From positions 1 to 20,321 of IMG/VR virus record IMGVR_UViG_3300037502_001879: a DNA stretch of 20,321 nucleotides, one strand, 5' to 3'. The notes below the pieces were generated by a model. It made no database searches, was not told the origin of the DNA, and saw only the letters and a program-made list of their open reading frames with translations. Positions 40-6,252 of the stretch are shown here, piece by piece; the stretch's first letter is position 1; every line of letters begins with the position of its first letter. This stretch comes from a virus. The translations under genes and the position numbers were made by a program.

Positions 40-114
40 TGGAGTCGCATACGGGTTACGATCCCGTCTGGTCACCTTGAAAGGGTGATGACCTCACCAG
101 AAGTCTAATGCGAC
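40..114 (-). tRNA. tRNA-Glu (anticodon TTC), first copy
   Basis: The minus strand folds as a full cloverleaf. The acceptor is GTCGCAT paired with ATGCGAC, the D stem GACT/GGTC, the anticodon stem TCACC/GGTGA with loop CTTTCAA (anticodon TTC), and the T stem ACGGG/CCCGT with loop ATCGTAA. A T discriminator and an encoded CCA follow. The T loop begins with A instead of the usual T, a quirk shared with the Asp gene at 342-416. It is the most promoter-distal tRNA visible in the array; the array may continue outside the window. Confidence 0.9.
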
Positions 115-341: not shown

Positions 342-416
342 TGGCGGTCCCAAGGGGTAACGATCCCCTTCTTCGAGCGTGACAGGCTCGTGTGCGTCCA
401 TGAACACTTTGAGACC
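342..416 (-). tRNA. tRNA-Asp (anticodon GTC), first copy
   Basis: The minus strand gives acceptor GGTCTCA/TGGGACC, D stem GTGT/GCAC, anticodon stem CGAGC/GCTCG with loop CTGTCAC (anticodon GTC), and T stem AGGGG/CCCCT with loop ATCGTTA. The discriminator is G and CCA is encoded. The G discriminator fits aspartate identity. Sequence differs throughout from the second Asp gene at 844-918. Confidence 0.92.
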
Positions 417-582: not shown

Positions 583-670
583 TGGTGGAGGTAGATGGAT
601 TTGAACCACCGAGACCCCGAAGGGTGCAGGATTTACAGTCCCGTGCAATCGACCGCTATGCGATACCTCC
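583..670 (-). tRNA. tRNA-Tyr (anticodon GTA), class II
   Basis: The minus strand has acceptor GGAGGTA/TACCTCC, A discriminator and encoded CCA. The anticodon stem is CGGGA/TCCTG with loop CTGTAAA (anticodon GTA). A long variable arm with CCC-TTC-GGG and a T loop TTCAAAT complete a typical bacterial class II tyrosine tRNA of 88 nt. Confidence 0.93.
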
Positions 671-843: not shown

Positions 844-918
844 TGGCGATGCGTGGGAGAATCGAACTCCCGTCTCTGGATAGACAATCCAGGATAATGA
901 CCATTATATGAACGCACC
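844..918 (-). tRNA. tRNA-Asp (anticodon GTC), second copy
   Basis: The minus strand forms acceptor GGTGCGT/ACGCATC, G discriminator, encoded CCA, anticodon stem CTGGA/TCCAG with loop TTGTCTA (anticodon GTC), and T stem GGGAG/CTCCC with loop TTCGATT. The D stem is weak (ATAT/TTAT, three pairs). This is a second, clearly different Asp tRNA in the same array. Confidence 0.9.
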
Positions 919-1014: not shown

Positions 1015-1089
1015 TGGTACTGGGTACGGGAATCGAACCCGTCTTAGTAGGTTGAAAACCTACTGTCCTAACCGATAGACGAACCCAGT
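1015..1089 (-). tRNA. tRNA-Glu (anticodon TTC), second copy
   Basis: The minus strand gives acceptor ACTGGGT/ACCCAGT, A discriminator, encoded CCA, D stem GTCT/GGAC, anticodon stem GTAGG/CCTAC with loop TTTTCAA (anticodon TTC), and T stem ACGGG/CCCGT with loop TTCGATT. It shares the anticodon but little sequence with the copy at 40-114. Confidence 0.92.
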
Positions 1090-1164: not shown

Positions 1165-1248
1165 TGGTGCGTAAGGAGAGACTCGAACTCTCAATCCTCG
1201 CGGCGCTGGCTTCTAAGACCAGAGTGTATACCATTCCACCACTTACGC
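1165..1248 (-). tRNA. tRNA-Leu (anticodon TAG)
   Basis: The minus strand has acceptor GCGTAAG/CTTACGC, A discriminator and encoded CCA. The anticodon stem CTGGT/GCCAG carries loop CTTAGAA (anticodon TAG). A class II variable arm and a T loop TTCGAGT complete it. It is closely similar to the neighbouring Leu(TAA) gene in its 5' half, suggesting duplication. Confidence 0.94.
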
Positions 1249-1328: not shown

Positions 1329-1413
1329 TGGTGCGAGTGGAGGGACTTGAACCCTCAATCCACAAAGGCGCAGGATTTTAAGTCCTGAGTGTATACCATT
1401 CCACCACACTCGC
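1329..1413 (-). tRNA. tRNA-Leu (anticodon TAA)
   Basis: The minus strand has acceptor GCGAGTG/CACTCGC, A discriminator and encoded CCA. The anticodon stem CAGGA/TCCTG carries loop CTTAAAA (anticodon TAA). The variable arm is class II and the T loop is TTCAAGT. It is the first tRNA after the structured leader, so the most promoter-proximal of the array. Confidence 0.94.
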
Positions 1414-1763
1414 ATTAGTTTTTCAACTATATGTAAACATACAAAGGAAGTCCAGTGACTACAGCTCACATAGGGCTTACATATTGCCTATGATCTTGCC
1501 TCAGCGGGTCTGTCTCCTGCTTCTCGCCTGCACTCATTATGGTCCGAACAACACCGCCGCTTTTCTGGATGACATCTCCTATTGGGAGAGCACCCGGCTT
1601 CATAACCCTGCACAGGCCCAGCCCATCGGCCAGCGTAACCTTGTGCAGAATCCTAACGGATTCGGTAACCCTTGTGTGTTTACATATAGTTGCCAGCCAC
1701 AAGGACTGGAACTATATGATAATAACTGTAACTTGTTAAAGAACATCTTGTTAGCGTTTAACT
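1414..1763 (-). ncRNA. Structured RNA leader of the tRNA array
   Basis: This 350-base stretch between the tandem promoters and tRNA-Leu has no convincing ORF but many pairings. A perfect 16-bp inverted repeat, CAACTATATGTAAACA at 1424-1439 and its complement at 1677-1692, brackets a domain containing CATAGG/CCTATG (1469-1474 with 1487-1492), TCTCC/GGAGA (1575-1579 with 1585-1589), CTGCACA/TGTGCAG (1608-1614 with 1642-1648) and GAATCC-TAAC-GGATTC (1648-1663). A local hairpin at 1684-1717 (ATATAGTT/AACTATAT plus CCAG/CTGG) reuses one arm of the long repeat, so two folds compete. I do not recognise the family. Phage structured RNAs linked to tRNAs such as GOLLD are a possibility to test. Confidence 0.55.
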
Positions 1764-1863: not shown

Positions 1864-1892
1864 ATTGTAGCAAACTTCAAAATATCAGTCAA
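1864..1892 (-). promoter_or_regulatory. sigma70-type promoter P2 of the tRNA array
   Basis: Minus strand: -35 TTGACT (1887-1892), 17-nt spacer, -10 TACAAT (1864-1869). The block GCTTCTATTGTAGCA around the -10 is duplicated at P1. P2 begins right after the terminator at 1907-1925. Confidence 0.8.
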
Positions 1893-1906
1893 CTACAAAA
1901 AAGAAA

Positions 1907-1925
1907 ACCCTCCGAGTTGGAGGGT
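1907..1925 (-). terminator. Intrinsic terminator of the leader region
   Basis: Minus strand: ACCCTCC-AACTC-GGAGGGT followed by TTTCTTTTTT. The CCCTCC arm is also the 3' end of an alternative helix with 1955-1969, so the terminator and that helix cannot form together. Confidence 0.85.
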
Positions 1926-1969
1926 CTTTGTTAATGTAACACTAGAGTACTACTTTAACAAAGACCTCC
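1919..1969 (-). promoter_or_regulatory. Possible antiterminator helix
   Basis: On the minus strand GGAGGTCTTTGTTAA (1969-1955) pairs with TTAACAAAGACCCTCC (1934-1919) apart from one bulged C, with a 20-nt loop. The 3' arm overlaps the 5' arm of the terminator at 1907-1925. The 5' arm coincides with codons 28-32 of the small ORF at 1955-2050, including its stop codon, the usual geometry of a translation-controlled attenuator. Confidence 0.55.
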
Positions 1970-2050
1970 TTGATCTTCACGCTCATAGGCATAGAGGTCA
2001 TTGCTCAATGACGGTATGCTTGATAAGGTGAACAGGATGTTTTGCATCAT
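1955..2050 (-). CDS. Putative 31-residue leader peptide
   Basis: The ORF begins with ATGATG six bases after the -10 box of the promoter at 2057-2085, so the transcript would be leaderless, and it ends at a TAA inside the antiterminator arm. Residues 18-26 read DLYAYERED; seven of nine are Asp, Leu, Tyr or Glu, the very amino acids of the tRNAs encoded downstream. A hairpin (1997-2012, GTCATT/AATGAC) lies just before these codons. I know no homologue. It may be a true leader peptide, an unrelated micro-ORF, or the region may be a small RNA gene that merely contains an ORF. Confidence 0.45.
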   Translation of the reverse strand: MMQNILFTLSSIPSLSNDLYAYEREDQGGLC

Positions 2051-2056
2051 AGTGCT

Positions 2057-2085
2057 AGTATATATGACAGCGAATAAAAAGTCAA
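2057..2085 (-). promoter_or_regulatory. sigma70-type promoter of the leader region
   Basis: Minus strand: -35 TTGACT (2080-2085), 17-nt spacer, -10 TATACT (2057-2062). Initiation about seven bases downstream would fall on the ATG at 2050. Confidence 0.75.
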
Positions 2086-2796: not shown

Positions 2797-3696
2797 TTAT
2801 GCTACAAATGGCGTGTATTCGATACCTGTAGTAGCAAGACCAGTCAAGCCAATGGCAGTTTCAAAGCTGGCCAATTCGCTGGCAATGACCAACACTTCAG
2901 CTTGGCTGTAGTTGTTGCCATTCATCCAGTTGGTCAACGCTGTCACATCAGCCAATGCGGCATCTGTGCCTGTGACGTTTTTGTAAACGTGCTTGATGAA
3001 AGTTTCTTGGCTCACACCACCGGCGTCGGTTTTGTAAGTGTCAGTGGCCAACAAGGCTTCTGCCAATTGCTTGTTTGTCCAGCCAGCATCTGCAAGATGG
3101 ATACCAATGCCTTTGTATGCGTTGGTAACATCGGCTGTGCCCAATGCGGCTGCCAACAATGCGTAAACATCACCTGCACGACCTGCGGCATCAAATGCAA
3201 TACCTTTGTTGGAGAACTCCACACGCTCGTGGTCTTCCAGGGTGTATGTCACGTTGGTAGCCAATGTGCTGGCCAATGTGATTTCGTCAGCAGTTTTAGT
3301 AACTGTGAATTCTGTGCTAGCACCCGGTACAACGTAGGTGTCAACACCGTTGGTACCTGTAACATCAACTTGAACGTCGACTGTGCCATCGCCAACACGA
3401 CCTGTACCTACCACACCAAAGGTAGCAACTTTACCAGCAGCTCCAACTGTGGCCACTGTAACGATCAAGTTATTAGCACTTGTGCCGCCCAATGCTGTAC
3501 CAGCAAGAGTGATTGTGTCGCCAGCCGCATAACCAGTGCCCGCACTGGCTGCTAGGCTATCTAGAACAACAGAATAAACTCCGTTGGTTTTTGTAACATC
3601 AAAGGCAGCACCGTCGCCCGAGCCGCCAGTTAGACCAGTTACGTTCTGATATGTGGTATTGACTGCTTTGTCTTTGATTGTGATTGTAGTTGTCAT
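2797..3696 (-). CDS. Surface/structural-type protein with DUF4214-like C-terminus
   Basis: The 299-residue product is rich in Thr, Val, Gly and Ala with no cysteine. Residues about 1-160 look like beta-rich repeats, with a phrase GTGYAAGDTITLAG (54-67) typical of phage virion and secreted repeat proteins. Residues about 170-290 are alpha-helical and resemble DUF4214, a domain seen in S-layer-like and secreted adhesins. There is no evident signal peptide. AAAGGA six bases before ATG supports the start. It follows the tmRNA terminator and ends at its own terminator, so it is monocistronic. A virion decoration or adhesion role is inference. Confidence 0.8.
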   Translation of the reverse strand: MTTTITIKDKAVNTTYQNVTGLTGGSGDGAAFDVTKTNGVYSVVLDSLAASAGTGYAAGDTITLAGTALGGTSANNLIVTVATVGAAGKVATFGVVGTGRVGDGTVDVQVDVTGTNGVDTYVVPGASTEFTVTKTADEITLASTLATNVTYTLEDHERVEFSNKGIAFDAAGRAGDVYALLAAALGTADVTNAYKGIGIHLADAGWTNKQLAEALLATDTYKTDAGGVSQETFIKHVYKNVTGTDAALADVTALTNWMNGNNYSQAEVLVIASELASFETAIGLTGLATTGIEYTPFVA

Positions 3697-3797: not shown

Positions 3798-3829
3798 GAC
3801 ACGAAAGTTTGACAATTTTGCCAAAAGAA

Positions 3830-3847
3830 AACCCGCCGAAGCGGGTT
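3830..3847 (-). terminator. Intrinsic terminator of the tmRNA gene
   Basis: Minus strand: AACCCGC-TTCG-GCGGGTT then TTCTTTT, a hairpin with a very stable TTCG tetraloop. Confidence 0.88.
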
Positions 3848-4097
3848 CCGAGTTTCTGTTACGAGGTATGTCTTACCCTAGGCTGCGTTTAGGCTGCCAA
3901 TGCGAACTGTGAGTCGTTTGCGTTTACTTTGTTTTCTTCTTTTTACATCGTTGCTGATGTGCTGTCCACTCTGTTACTCTTTGCCCTGTCGAAAACCAAA
4001 GTCATCCCCACCTAAATATACCTAATACACTTAGGTGGAGATGCCGGGAGTCGAACCCGGGTCCAAGACCTGTTTCACTTCACTTCATACAGCAATA
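3848..4097 (-). ncRNA. ssrA: Circularly permuted (two-piece) tmRNA
   Basis: tmRNA rescues ribosomes stalled on broken mRNA and adds a degradation tag. In transcription order the 3' tRNA-like part comes first: T arm CCGGG-TTCGACT-CCCGG (4044-4060) and acceptor strand CATCTCC with ACC (4034-4043). A 24-nt linker (4010-4033) follows, then the 5' part: GGGGATG (4003-4009) and GGTTTTCGACAGGG, the signature of tmRNA 5' ends. GGGGATG pairs with CATCTCC, and the pairing continues into the linker (ACCTAA/TTAGGT), so the precursor loop is excised to give two pieces. The tag frame (3889-3921) reads ANDSQFALAA then TAA. CCA is only partly encoded. Permuted tmRNAs are known in Alphaproteobacteria, some cyanobacteria and some Betaproteobacteria. 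The outer ends are inferred from promoter and terminator. Confidence 0.92.
3889..3921 (-). other. tmRNA tag reading frame (ANDSQFALAA)
   Basis: The resume codon GCA and the following codons encode ANDSQFALAA and stop at TAA. The AND start and the ALAA end match the standard proteobacterial tag and its ClpXP recognition end. The phage therefore tags with a fully degradable, host-like sequence. Confidence 0.92.
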
Positions 4098-4103
4098 ACT
4101 CTT

Positions 4104-4132
4104 ATTTTACGGCTCTACGATTTGTATGTCAA
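4104..4132 (-). promoter_or_regulatory. Promoter of the tmRNA gene
   Basis: Minus strand: -35 TTGACA (4127-4132), 17-nt spacer, -10 TAAAAT (4104-4109). It overlaps the last codons of the 58-residue ORF and would start transcription near 4097. Confidence 0.8.
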
Positions 4133-5631: not shown

Positions 5632-6252
5632 TTAATATTTCCCTGATGCTAATACGATTTGGCAAATATGTTCCAATCGTTCGATGTGTTCAAATGCACG
5701 CCACGGACTGGTGTCAATGGCCACTACTCCGTGACCTTTGATCCCAACAATGTCATAAGCAATATTTCCGTAGTCATCTAACTGCAAGTTCTCATGGCAA
5801 CGGTCAGCAAGTTCTTGACTGATAGGTGCTACATCTCCCACGTTAGGTGCTACTTTGGTATAACGACTGAGTTCAGGAAAGCTATCAGCAAGGCTGCTTA
5901 ACTCAATCCCCCGATGCATGGCTGCCACACAATATGTAGGATGCAAGTGAACCACAACCCTGACATCATTGCTGTGCTGGCCCATTGCTCTCTGCAATCC
6001 AAAGTGCAAGGGAATCTCCCCACTGGGCTTGAGTTTAGCACTGATATCAGAATAGTGTTCTTCCTGCCACAACAACCCGTGAATGCTGATCTTCTTGAAC
6101 TGATCCGGTTGCATTGTTTGCTTACGGACGCCACTGGGTGTGATGTAAAAGTGATCCCTGTCGTGATGACGAATTGAAACATTGCCATCACGACTGGTGA
6201 TCCAATTGCGTCTATATGCTTCAACTAATGTATCGCAAATGGTTTCTAACAT
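5632..6252 (-). CDS. Class II aldolase/adducin family protein
   Basis: The 206-residue protein has the class II aldolase layout: GNVSIR (23-28), YITPSG (36-41), KPSGE (75-79, with the catalytic-type E79), HLH zinc ligands (H102, H104) and a third ligand in KGHG (H174). Family members include L-fuculose-phosphate aldolase, ribulose-phosphate 4-epimerase and methylthioribulose-1-phosphate dehydratase; all key residues look intact but the substrate cannot be decided. It starts two bases after the 58-residue ORF and ends one base before ahpD, so it is co-transcribed with the peroxidase pair, an unusual companion. Confidence 0.88.
   Translation of the reverse strand: MLETICDTLVEAYRRNWITSRDGNVSIRHHDRDHFYITPSGVRKQTMQPDQFKKISIHGLLWQEEHYSDISAKLKPSGEIPLHFGLQRAMGQHSNDVRVVVHLHPTYCVAAMHRGIELSSLADSFPELSRYTKVAPNVGDVAPISQELADRCHENLQLDDYGNIAYDIVGIKGHGVVAIDTSPWRAFEHIERLEHICQIVLASGKY

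Follow-up and report, generated by a model that had tools for sequence, protein, structure and literature searches.

Results

The window analysed here (20,321 bases) is the entire IMG/VR record IMGVR_UViG_3300037502_001879, a virus fragment from a large freshwater phage. Its 299-residue protein (2797-3696, minus strand) has close relatives on contigs that reach 300-525 kb; this protein, which has a weak DUF4214 match and is a useful marker of the phage group, shows 77-98% identity in the 80 viral loci kept. The tmRNA gene of the virus, located upstream of the tRNA array (3798-4125, minus strand), fits the betaproteobacterial model and has the tag ANDSQFALAA, with different predicted tags in relatives.

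On the minus strand, a promoter (P0), a short leader ORF, an intrinsic terminator, two further promoters and a series of tRNA genes follow each other (Table 1). The initial annotation had described P0, the 31-codon ORF, an antiterminator helix, a terminator with a common CCCTCC arm, and two promoters beyond that terminator; scan, translation and folds returned all of these, exactly in every coordinate checked. A 24-base inverted repeat (1424-1447/1669-1692) that encloses ~220 nt lies downstream of the promoters and ahead of the first tRNA-Leu gene, and a 20-base inverted pair (419-438/557-576) is found between tRNA genes; both are possible processing stems. A degenerate tRNA-like stretch is visible by eye, not by ARAGORN, between P1 and P2 in the relatives L020 and L110 (read in L105). 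Positions 1730-1745 I take to be a boxA, given their resemblance to the boxA of rRNA. Such a motif (TTCTTTAAMAA type) precedes the tRNA array in the 11 leader-bearing and six leader-less relatives checked, which suggests that, as in rRNA operons, Nus factors may act in antitermination on a long and untranslated tRNA transcript.

Table 1. Features of the leader and tRNA array in the window
Feature	Position	Strand	Basis and remarks
P0 promoter, TTGACT-17-TATACT	2057..2085	-	Sigma-70 type; promoter scan; predicted start at or adjoining ATG 2050
Leader ORF, 31 codons, probably leaderless	1955..2050	-	Translation MMQNILFTLSSIPSLSNDLYAYEREDQGGLC; 20 distinct homologues
Hairpin I within ORF, possible pause hairpin	1976..2032	-	Folds
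Control region, codons 18-26 DLYAYERED	1973..1999	-	Invariant core Tyr22-Glu23 at 1987-1982
Antiterminator 5' arm GGAGGTCTTTGTTA	1955..1969	-	Folds; overlaps final ORF codons and stop
Antiterminator 3' arm TAACAAAGACCCTCC	1919..1934	-	Folds; common to terminator
Intrinsic terminator ACCCTCC-AACTC-GGAGGGT + T-tract	1896..1925 (hairpin 1925-1907)	-	Scan; covariation
P1 promoter, extended -10 type	1864..1892	-	Scan and repeat search
P2 promoter, repeat of P1	1776..1804	-	Scan and repeat search
Presumed rrn-like boxA TGTTCTTTAACAAGTT	1730..1745	-	Motif also in relatives
tRNA-Leu (UAA), first of array	1329..1413	-	ARAGORN
tRNA-Leu (UAG)	1165..1248	-	ARAGORN
tRNA-Glu (UUC)	1015..1089	-	ARAGORN
tRNA-Asp (GUC)	844..918	-	ARAGORN
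tRNA-Tyr (GUA)	583..670	-	ARAGORN
tRNA-Asp (GUC)	342..416	-	ARAGORN
tRNA-Glu (UUC); contig end here	40..114	-	ARAGORN

Protein and pattern searches retrieved homologous leaders in L016, L020/L021, L103, L104, L026/L106, L105/L110, L107, L156/L157, L153/L159 and L158. A final scan, whose pattern comprised only start region, helix and terminator and left out the control codons, added L184, L186, L187, L188, L189, L190 (with the same leader in L195 and L196), L192, L194 and L197 (likewise in L198), so that 20 distinct leaders are available, i.e. the window and 19 further distinct viral sequences. All of them have a TATAxT-type -10 box a few nucleotides before the ATG, the -10 region of P0 and its spacing to the ATG being conserved, and a tRNA array follows in 19/19 leaders with visible downstream DNA (the contig of L186 ends before). 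Four other scan matches (L183, L185, L191, L193) have neither the promoter geometry nor a leader and were set aside as chance. In 96 related records, a covariance model built on the leader added no member to the known pattern matches, and its weaker matches, when inspected, looked like ordinary terminators. In bacterial genomes the pattern gave seven matches in unrelated phyla, about the chance estimate; a blast search of named phages with the region returned only short pieces of ~79% identity over tRNA genes, and the cupin protein (2116-2724), used as a search lead, pointed mostly to loci that lack this array. In six relatives (L030, L069, L073, L076, L093, L094) the promoters, boxA and Asp-Glu-Tyr tRNAs are kept and the leader is absent, hence the device can be dispensed with in this virus group. 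According to the initial annotation, relatives that keep the tRNAs without the ORF would speak against an attenuator; these six are of that kind, and the objection applies in part.

The ATG lies ~7 nt past the -10 box of P0 and no Shine-Dalgarno sequence is present, so that, given the predicted RNA start, only leaderless translation is possible; the leader ORF is thus probably leaderless. The proposal that the leader is translated gains from its conservation: the frame is kept in all 20 leaders at a length of 30-32 codons, though the lineages share little N-terminal sequence, and within the lineage of the window 39% of the pairwise codon differences (67 of 174) leave the amino acid unchanged, where random single changes would give ~23%. 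In L103 a one-base loss is compensated by another indel that restores the frame. Tyr-Glu is invariant (20/20 leaders, hence in every true homologue of the scan that left out the control codons) and is written with synonymous codons (TAT/TAC for Tyr, GAG/GAA for Glu). It is followed by Arg in 11 leaders, Ser in 7 and His in 2, and then by Asp (13) or Glu (7), and Ala stands directly before Tyr in 19/20. Conservation of the peptide is therefore concentrated in Ala-Tyr-Glu-x-Asp/Glu and the arm-encoded Gly-Leu-Cys and does not extend along its whole length. Arg, demanded by earlier search patterns, was dropped as a motif residue after the scan without control codons. An internal ORF in another frame (ATGAGCGTG...) was rejected by eye, its length not being conserved and a ribosome site being absent.

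The 161-nt leader folds better than 200/200 dinucleotide shuffles (z -4.7). The helix of 1969-1955 with 1934-1919 and the terminator hairpin (1925-1907) have the CCCTCC arm in common, and in 20/20 leaders the antiterminator helix takes up two or all three of the C residues at the terminator base. In order to model the switch, the RNA downstream of the ribosome was folded for every A-site codon in turn (ViennaRNA), taking the RNA as free from 13 nt past the first A-site base, at equilibrium and ignoring kinetics. Throughout the 20 leaders the basal terminator pair has a low probability when the Tyr or the Glu codon is in the A site, and this probability rises to 1.00 within a few codons. The model thus predicts that a ribosome at Tyr/Glu hinders the terminator and that a ribosome a few codons further on frees it. 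The drop is not equally deep everywhere: L026 has a terminator probability of 0.34 at Tyr and already 0.99 at Glu, and in L107, L110 and L156, where the equilibrium competition is weak, it falls only to ~0.5. Dinucleotide shuffling of the arm region in 11 leaders raised the mean terminator probability to 0.88-1.00; a value as low as observed or lower was reached in 0-13 of 400 shuffles in 10 of these leaders and in 59/400 in L026. In the leader-less L073, L076, L093 and L094, which have a similar hairpin before the terminator, there was no competition, with a probability of 1.00 at every codon tested.

Aligning the region in related phages, as had been proposed, showed the terminator to covary: three pairs have both partners altered in register, in 11 cells against a shuffled mean of 3.4 (0/500 shuffles). 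The antiterminator does so in part, with four pairs altered on both sides in the 11-leader alignment (7 cells, shuffled mean 2.7, 0/500). Its core GGUCUUUG/CAAAGACC is nearly constant across leaders, and since it hardly varies, covariation neither supports nor opposes it. The extension of the antiterminator into the terminator matches the terminator changes in L110 and L026, not in L107, L153, L156 and L158. Hairpin I is clear in the lineage of the window, where it has paired changes, and less clear in the distant L153 and L158.

That the short ORF, promoter and hairpins have no function at all would suit the weak statistics of the single window, in which 7/9 codons match the tRNAs (~0.03 after allowing for 23 windows), and the initial annotation had conceded that this match might be chance. 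Against it stand 19 further distinct viral sequences that likewise contain the ORF in its leaderless geometry, the antiterminator core and the terminator, with the frame kept, a covarying terminator and a non-random helix competition, and I consider this explanation hardly credible.

A second alternative is a self-contained small gene, i.e. a leaderless mRNA of ~150 nt with its own terminator, encoding a peptide of 30-32 residues or acting as a small RNA in trans, in which the helix would only stabilise the 3' end, with P1 and P2 as the sole promoters of the array. Promoters do follow the terminator, the leader-less relatives have similar arrays behind P1/P2-like promoters with a hairpin directly before the terminator, and the trp attenuator RNA of S. 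meliloti is both trans-acting and a small leaderless mRNA (PMC7298713). I nevertheless deem it unlikely, as the helix overlaps the terminator in all leaders, with no competition in leader-less relatives, the leader always adjoins an array, and the peptide is constant mainly at two short motifs.

The seven tRNAs of the window are a partial array, as the contig stops there; the arrays of L176, L177 and L179 extend over ~8-15 kb, with 31-36 tRNAs that cover nearly all amino acids. Among the arrays in which Leu does not come first, 11 were clearly read (L026, L153, L158, L184, L187, L188, L189, L190, L192, L194, L197); in these the first three types are exactly Glu, Tyr and Asp (ARAGORN), while the lineage of the window has Leu, Leu and Glu first and Tyr soon after. 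In L104 ARAGORN gives no Tyr tRNA; two long-arm tRNA-like stretches (5949-6034 and 6112-6198) show, by eye, a GTA anticodon loop and degenerate D arms. The enrichment of Asp/Tyr/Glu codons is modest (P ~0.04 in an eight-codon window, by the composition test alone), and the match between arrays and codons calls for caution, as the leaders share ancestry. The Tyr, Glu and Asp control codons coincide with the first tRNAs, while complete arrays span nearly all amino acids; the proposed match accordingly concerns the promoter-proximal block and not the array as a whole. From the suggested control set of Asp, Leu, Tyr and Glu, Tyr-Glu-x-(Asp/Glu) is constant in the 20 leaders, whereas Leu is inconstant, and L104, with Leu codons in its leader and no Leu tRNA seen in its array, breaks the correlation between Leu codons and leading Leu tRNAs.

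The same switch might answer to another signal, such as nascent-chain arrest or ligand sensing by Ala-Tyr-Glu-x-Asp, or the general state of translation, read e.g. via leaderless initiation, instead of the charging of Tyr, Glu and Asp tRNAs. A nearly invariant Ala before Tyr would fit this, as would the lack of a repeated run of control codons as in trp or his, and a general sensor would make sense for arrays that cover nearly all amino acids. Yet the residue between Glu and Asp varies freely, the invariant residues coincide with the first array tRNAs, and the folding model puts the switch point at Tyr-Glu, which makes this reading quite unlikely.

Discussion

With fair confidence, based on comparative sequence analysis and folding models, I interpret the element as a ribosome-mediated transcription attenuator of the trp/his kind, placed before a phage tRNA array and having Tyr, Glu and Asp as control codons. 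Several features of that class are present: a promoter, a short leader ORF of inferred translation, an intrinsic terminator and an antiterminator that is predicted to be mutually exclusive with it, and in silico a ribosome at the stop codon favours termination and one at the control codons antitermination. The architecture with mutually exclusive helices, as initially proposed, is thus borne out by the 20 homologous leaders and by folding, and the leader is probably a conserved, functional attenuator of the array. A T-box or another Rfam leader was rejected, as there was no Rfam match at the gathering score and no T-box at E up to 1.

Leaderless translation, stalling, read-through and the sensing of tRNA supply are what I infer in the following scheme. 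RNA polymerase would start at P0, and a ribosome would load directly on the 5' AUG, which may let it start once the RNA emerges. When the Tyr, Glu and Asp codons are read fast, the ribosome at the end of the ORF would cover the antiterminator 5' arm, allowing the terminator to form and the transcript to end at ~150 nt. A ribosome waiting at Tyr-Glu would leave the 5' arm free to pair with the terminator base, and with the terminator blocked the polymerase would continue into the tRNA genes, the first of which include those for Glu, Tyr and usually Asp. As at least one promoter lies 3' of the terminator ahead of the array, such a device would add to tRNA synthesis and not gate it. According to modelling, the sensitivity of an attenuator rises with the number of its regulatory codons (PMC1183508), and with only a handful of mixed codons a modest response is predicted.

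What tRNA genes are for in phages has long been asked. If the proposed attenuator operates, the phage gauges the decoding of given codons and replies with their tRNAs, which would then repair shortages during infection, and the leader would tell which of these shortages matter. Retron-Eco7 (PtuAB) cleaves tRNA-Tyr, to which T5 and SP15 reply with their own tRNA-Tyr (PMC11555353), and against Septu (PtuAB) the tRNA-Tyr of T6 is raised to replace the cleaved host tRNA (PMC13096335), the increase being due to a strong promoter or gene amplification (PMC11555353; PMC13096335). By analogy, stalling at Tyr-Glu could be a regulated version of this answer. It is possible, though doubtful, that the leader acts as an alarm for tRNA-targeting host defence, a feedback-controlled counter-defence in which depletion of tRNA-Tyr (or Glu, Asp) would stall the ribosome at Tyr-Glu-x-Asp and yield extra replacement tRNAs.

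The trp, his, leu, pheA, thr and ilvGMEDA operons of Escherichia and Salmonella have ribosome-mediated attenuators, the thr and ilv leaders answering to several amino acids. The phage element resembles this class in its promoter, its short leader ORF with control codons, its antiterminator opposed to an intrinsic terminator, and in the position of the ribosome as the switch. It differs in that it precedes viral tRNA genes and not biosynthesis genes, has no codon runs, is probably leaderless and is followed by more promoters after the terminator. Ribosome-mediated attenuation has long been known for amino-acid operons, and a viral tRNA array under such control would be the first found; in agreement with the initial annotation, none was encountered in searches of an open-access library with little coverage of subscription journals. 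T-box riboswitches likewise attenuate transcription on uncharged tRNA; they bind the tRNA directly without a leader peptide, whereas the phage leader has a leader peptide ORF and no Rfam match at the gathering score. The phages that counter PtuAB are similar in that they raise their own tRNA, and different in that no attenuation is named in the main texts (PMC11555353, PMC13096335). In trpL of Sinorhizobium meliloti (rnTrpL/peTrpL), attenuation is ribosome-dependent, and the terminated RNA acts in trans (PMC7298713). This system is cellular, answers to Trp only, lies upstream of trpE(G) and encodes a peptide of 14 residues that includes Trp codons, but its RNA begins at the ATG of the leader ORF (PMC7298713), as is predicted for the phage leader.
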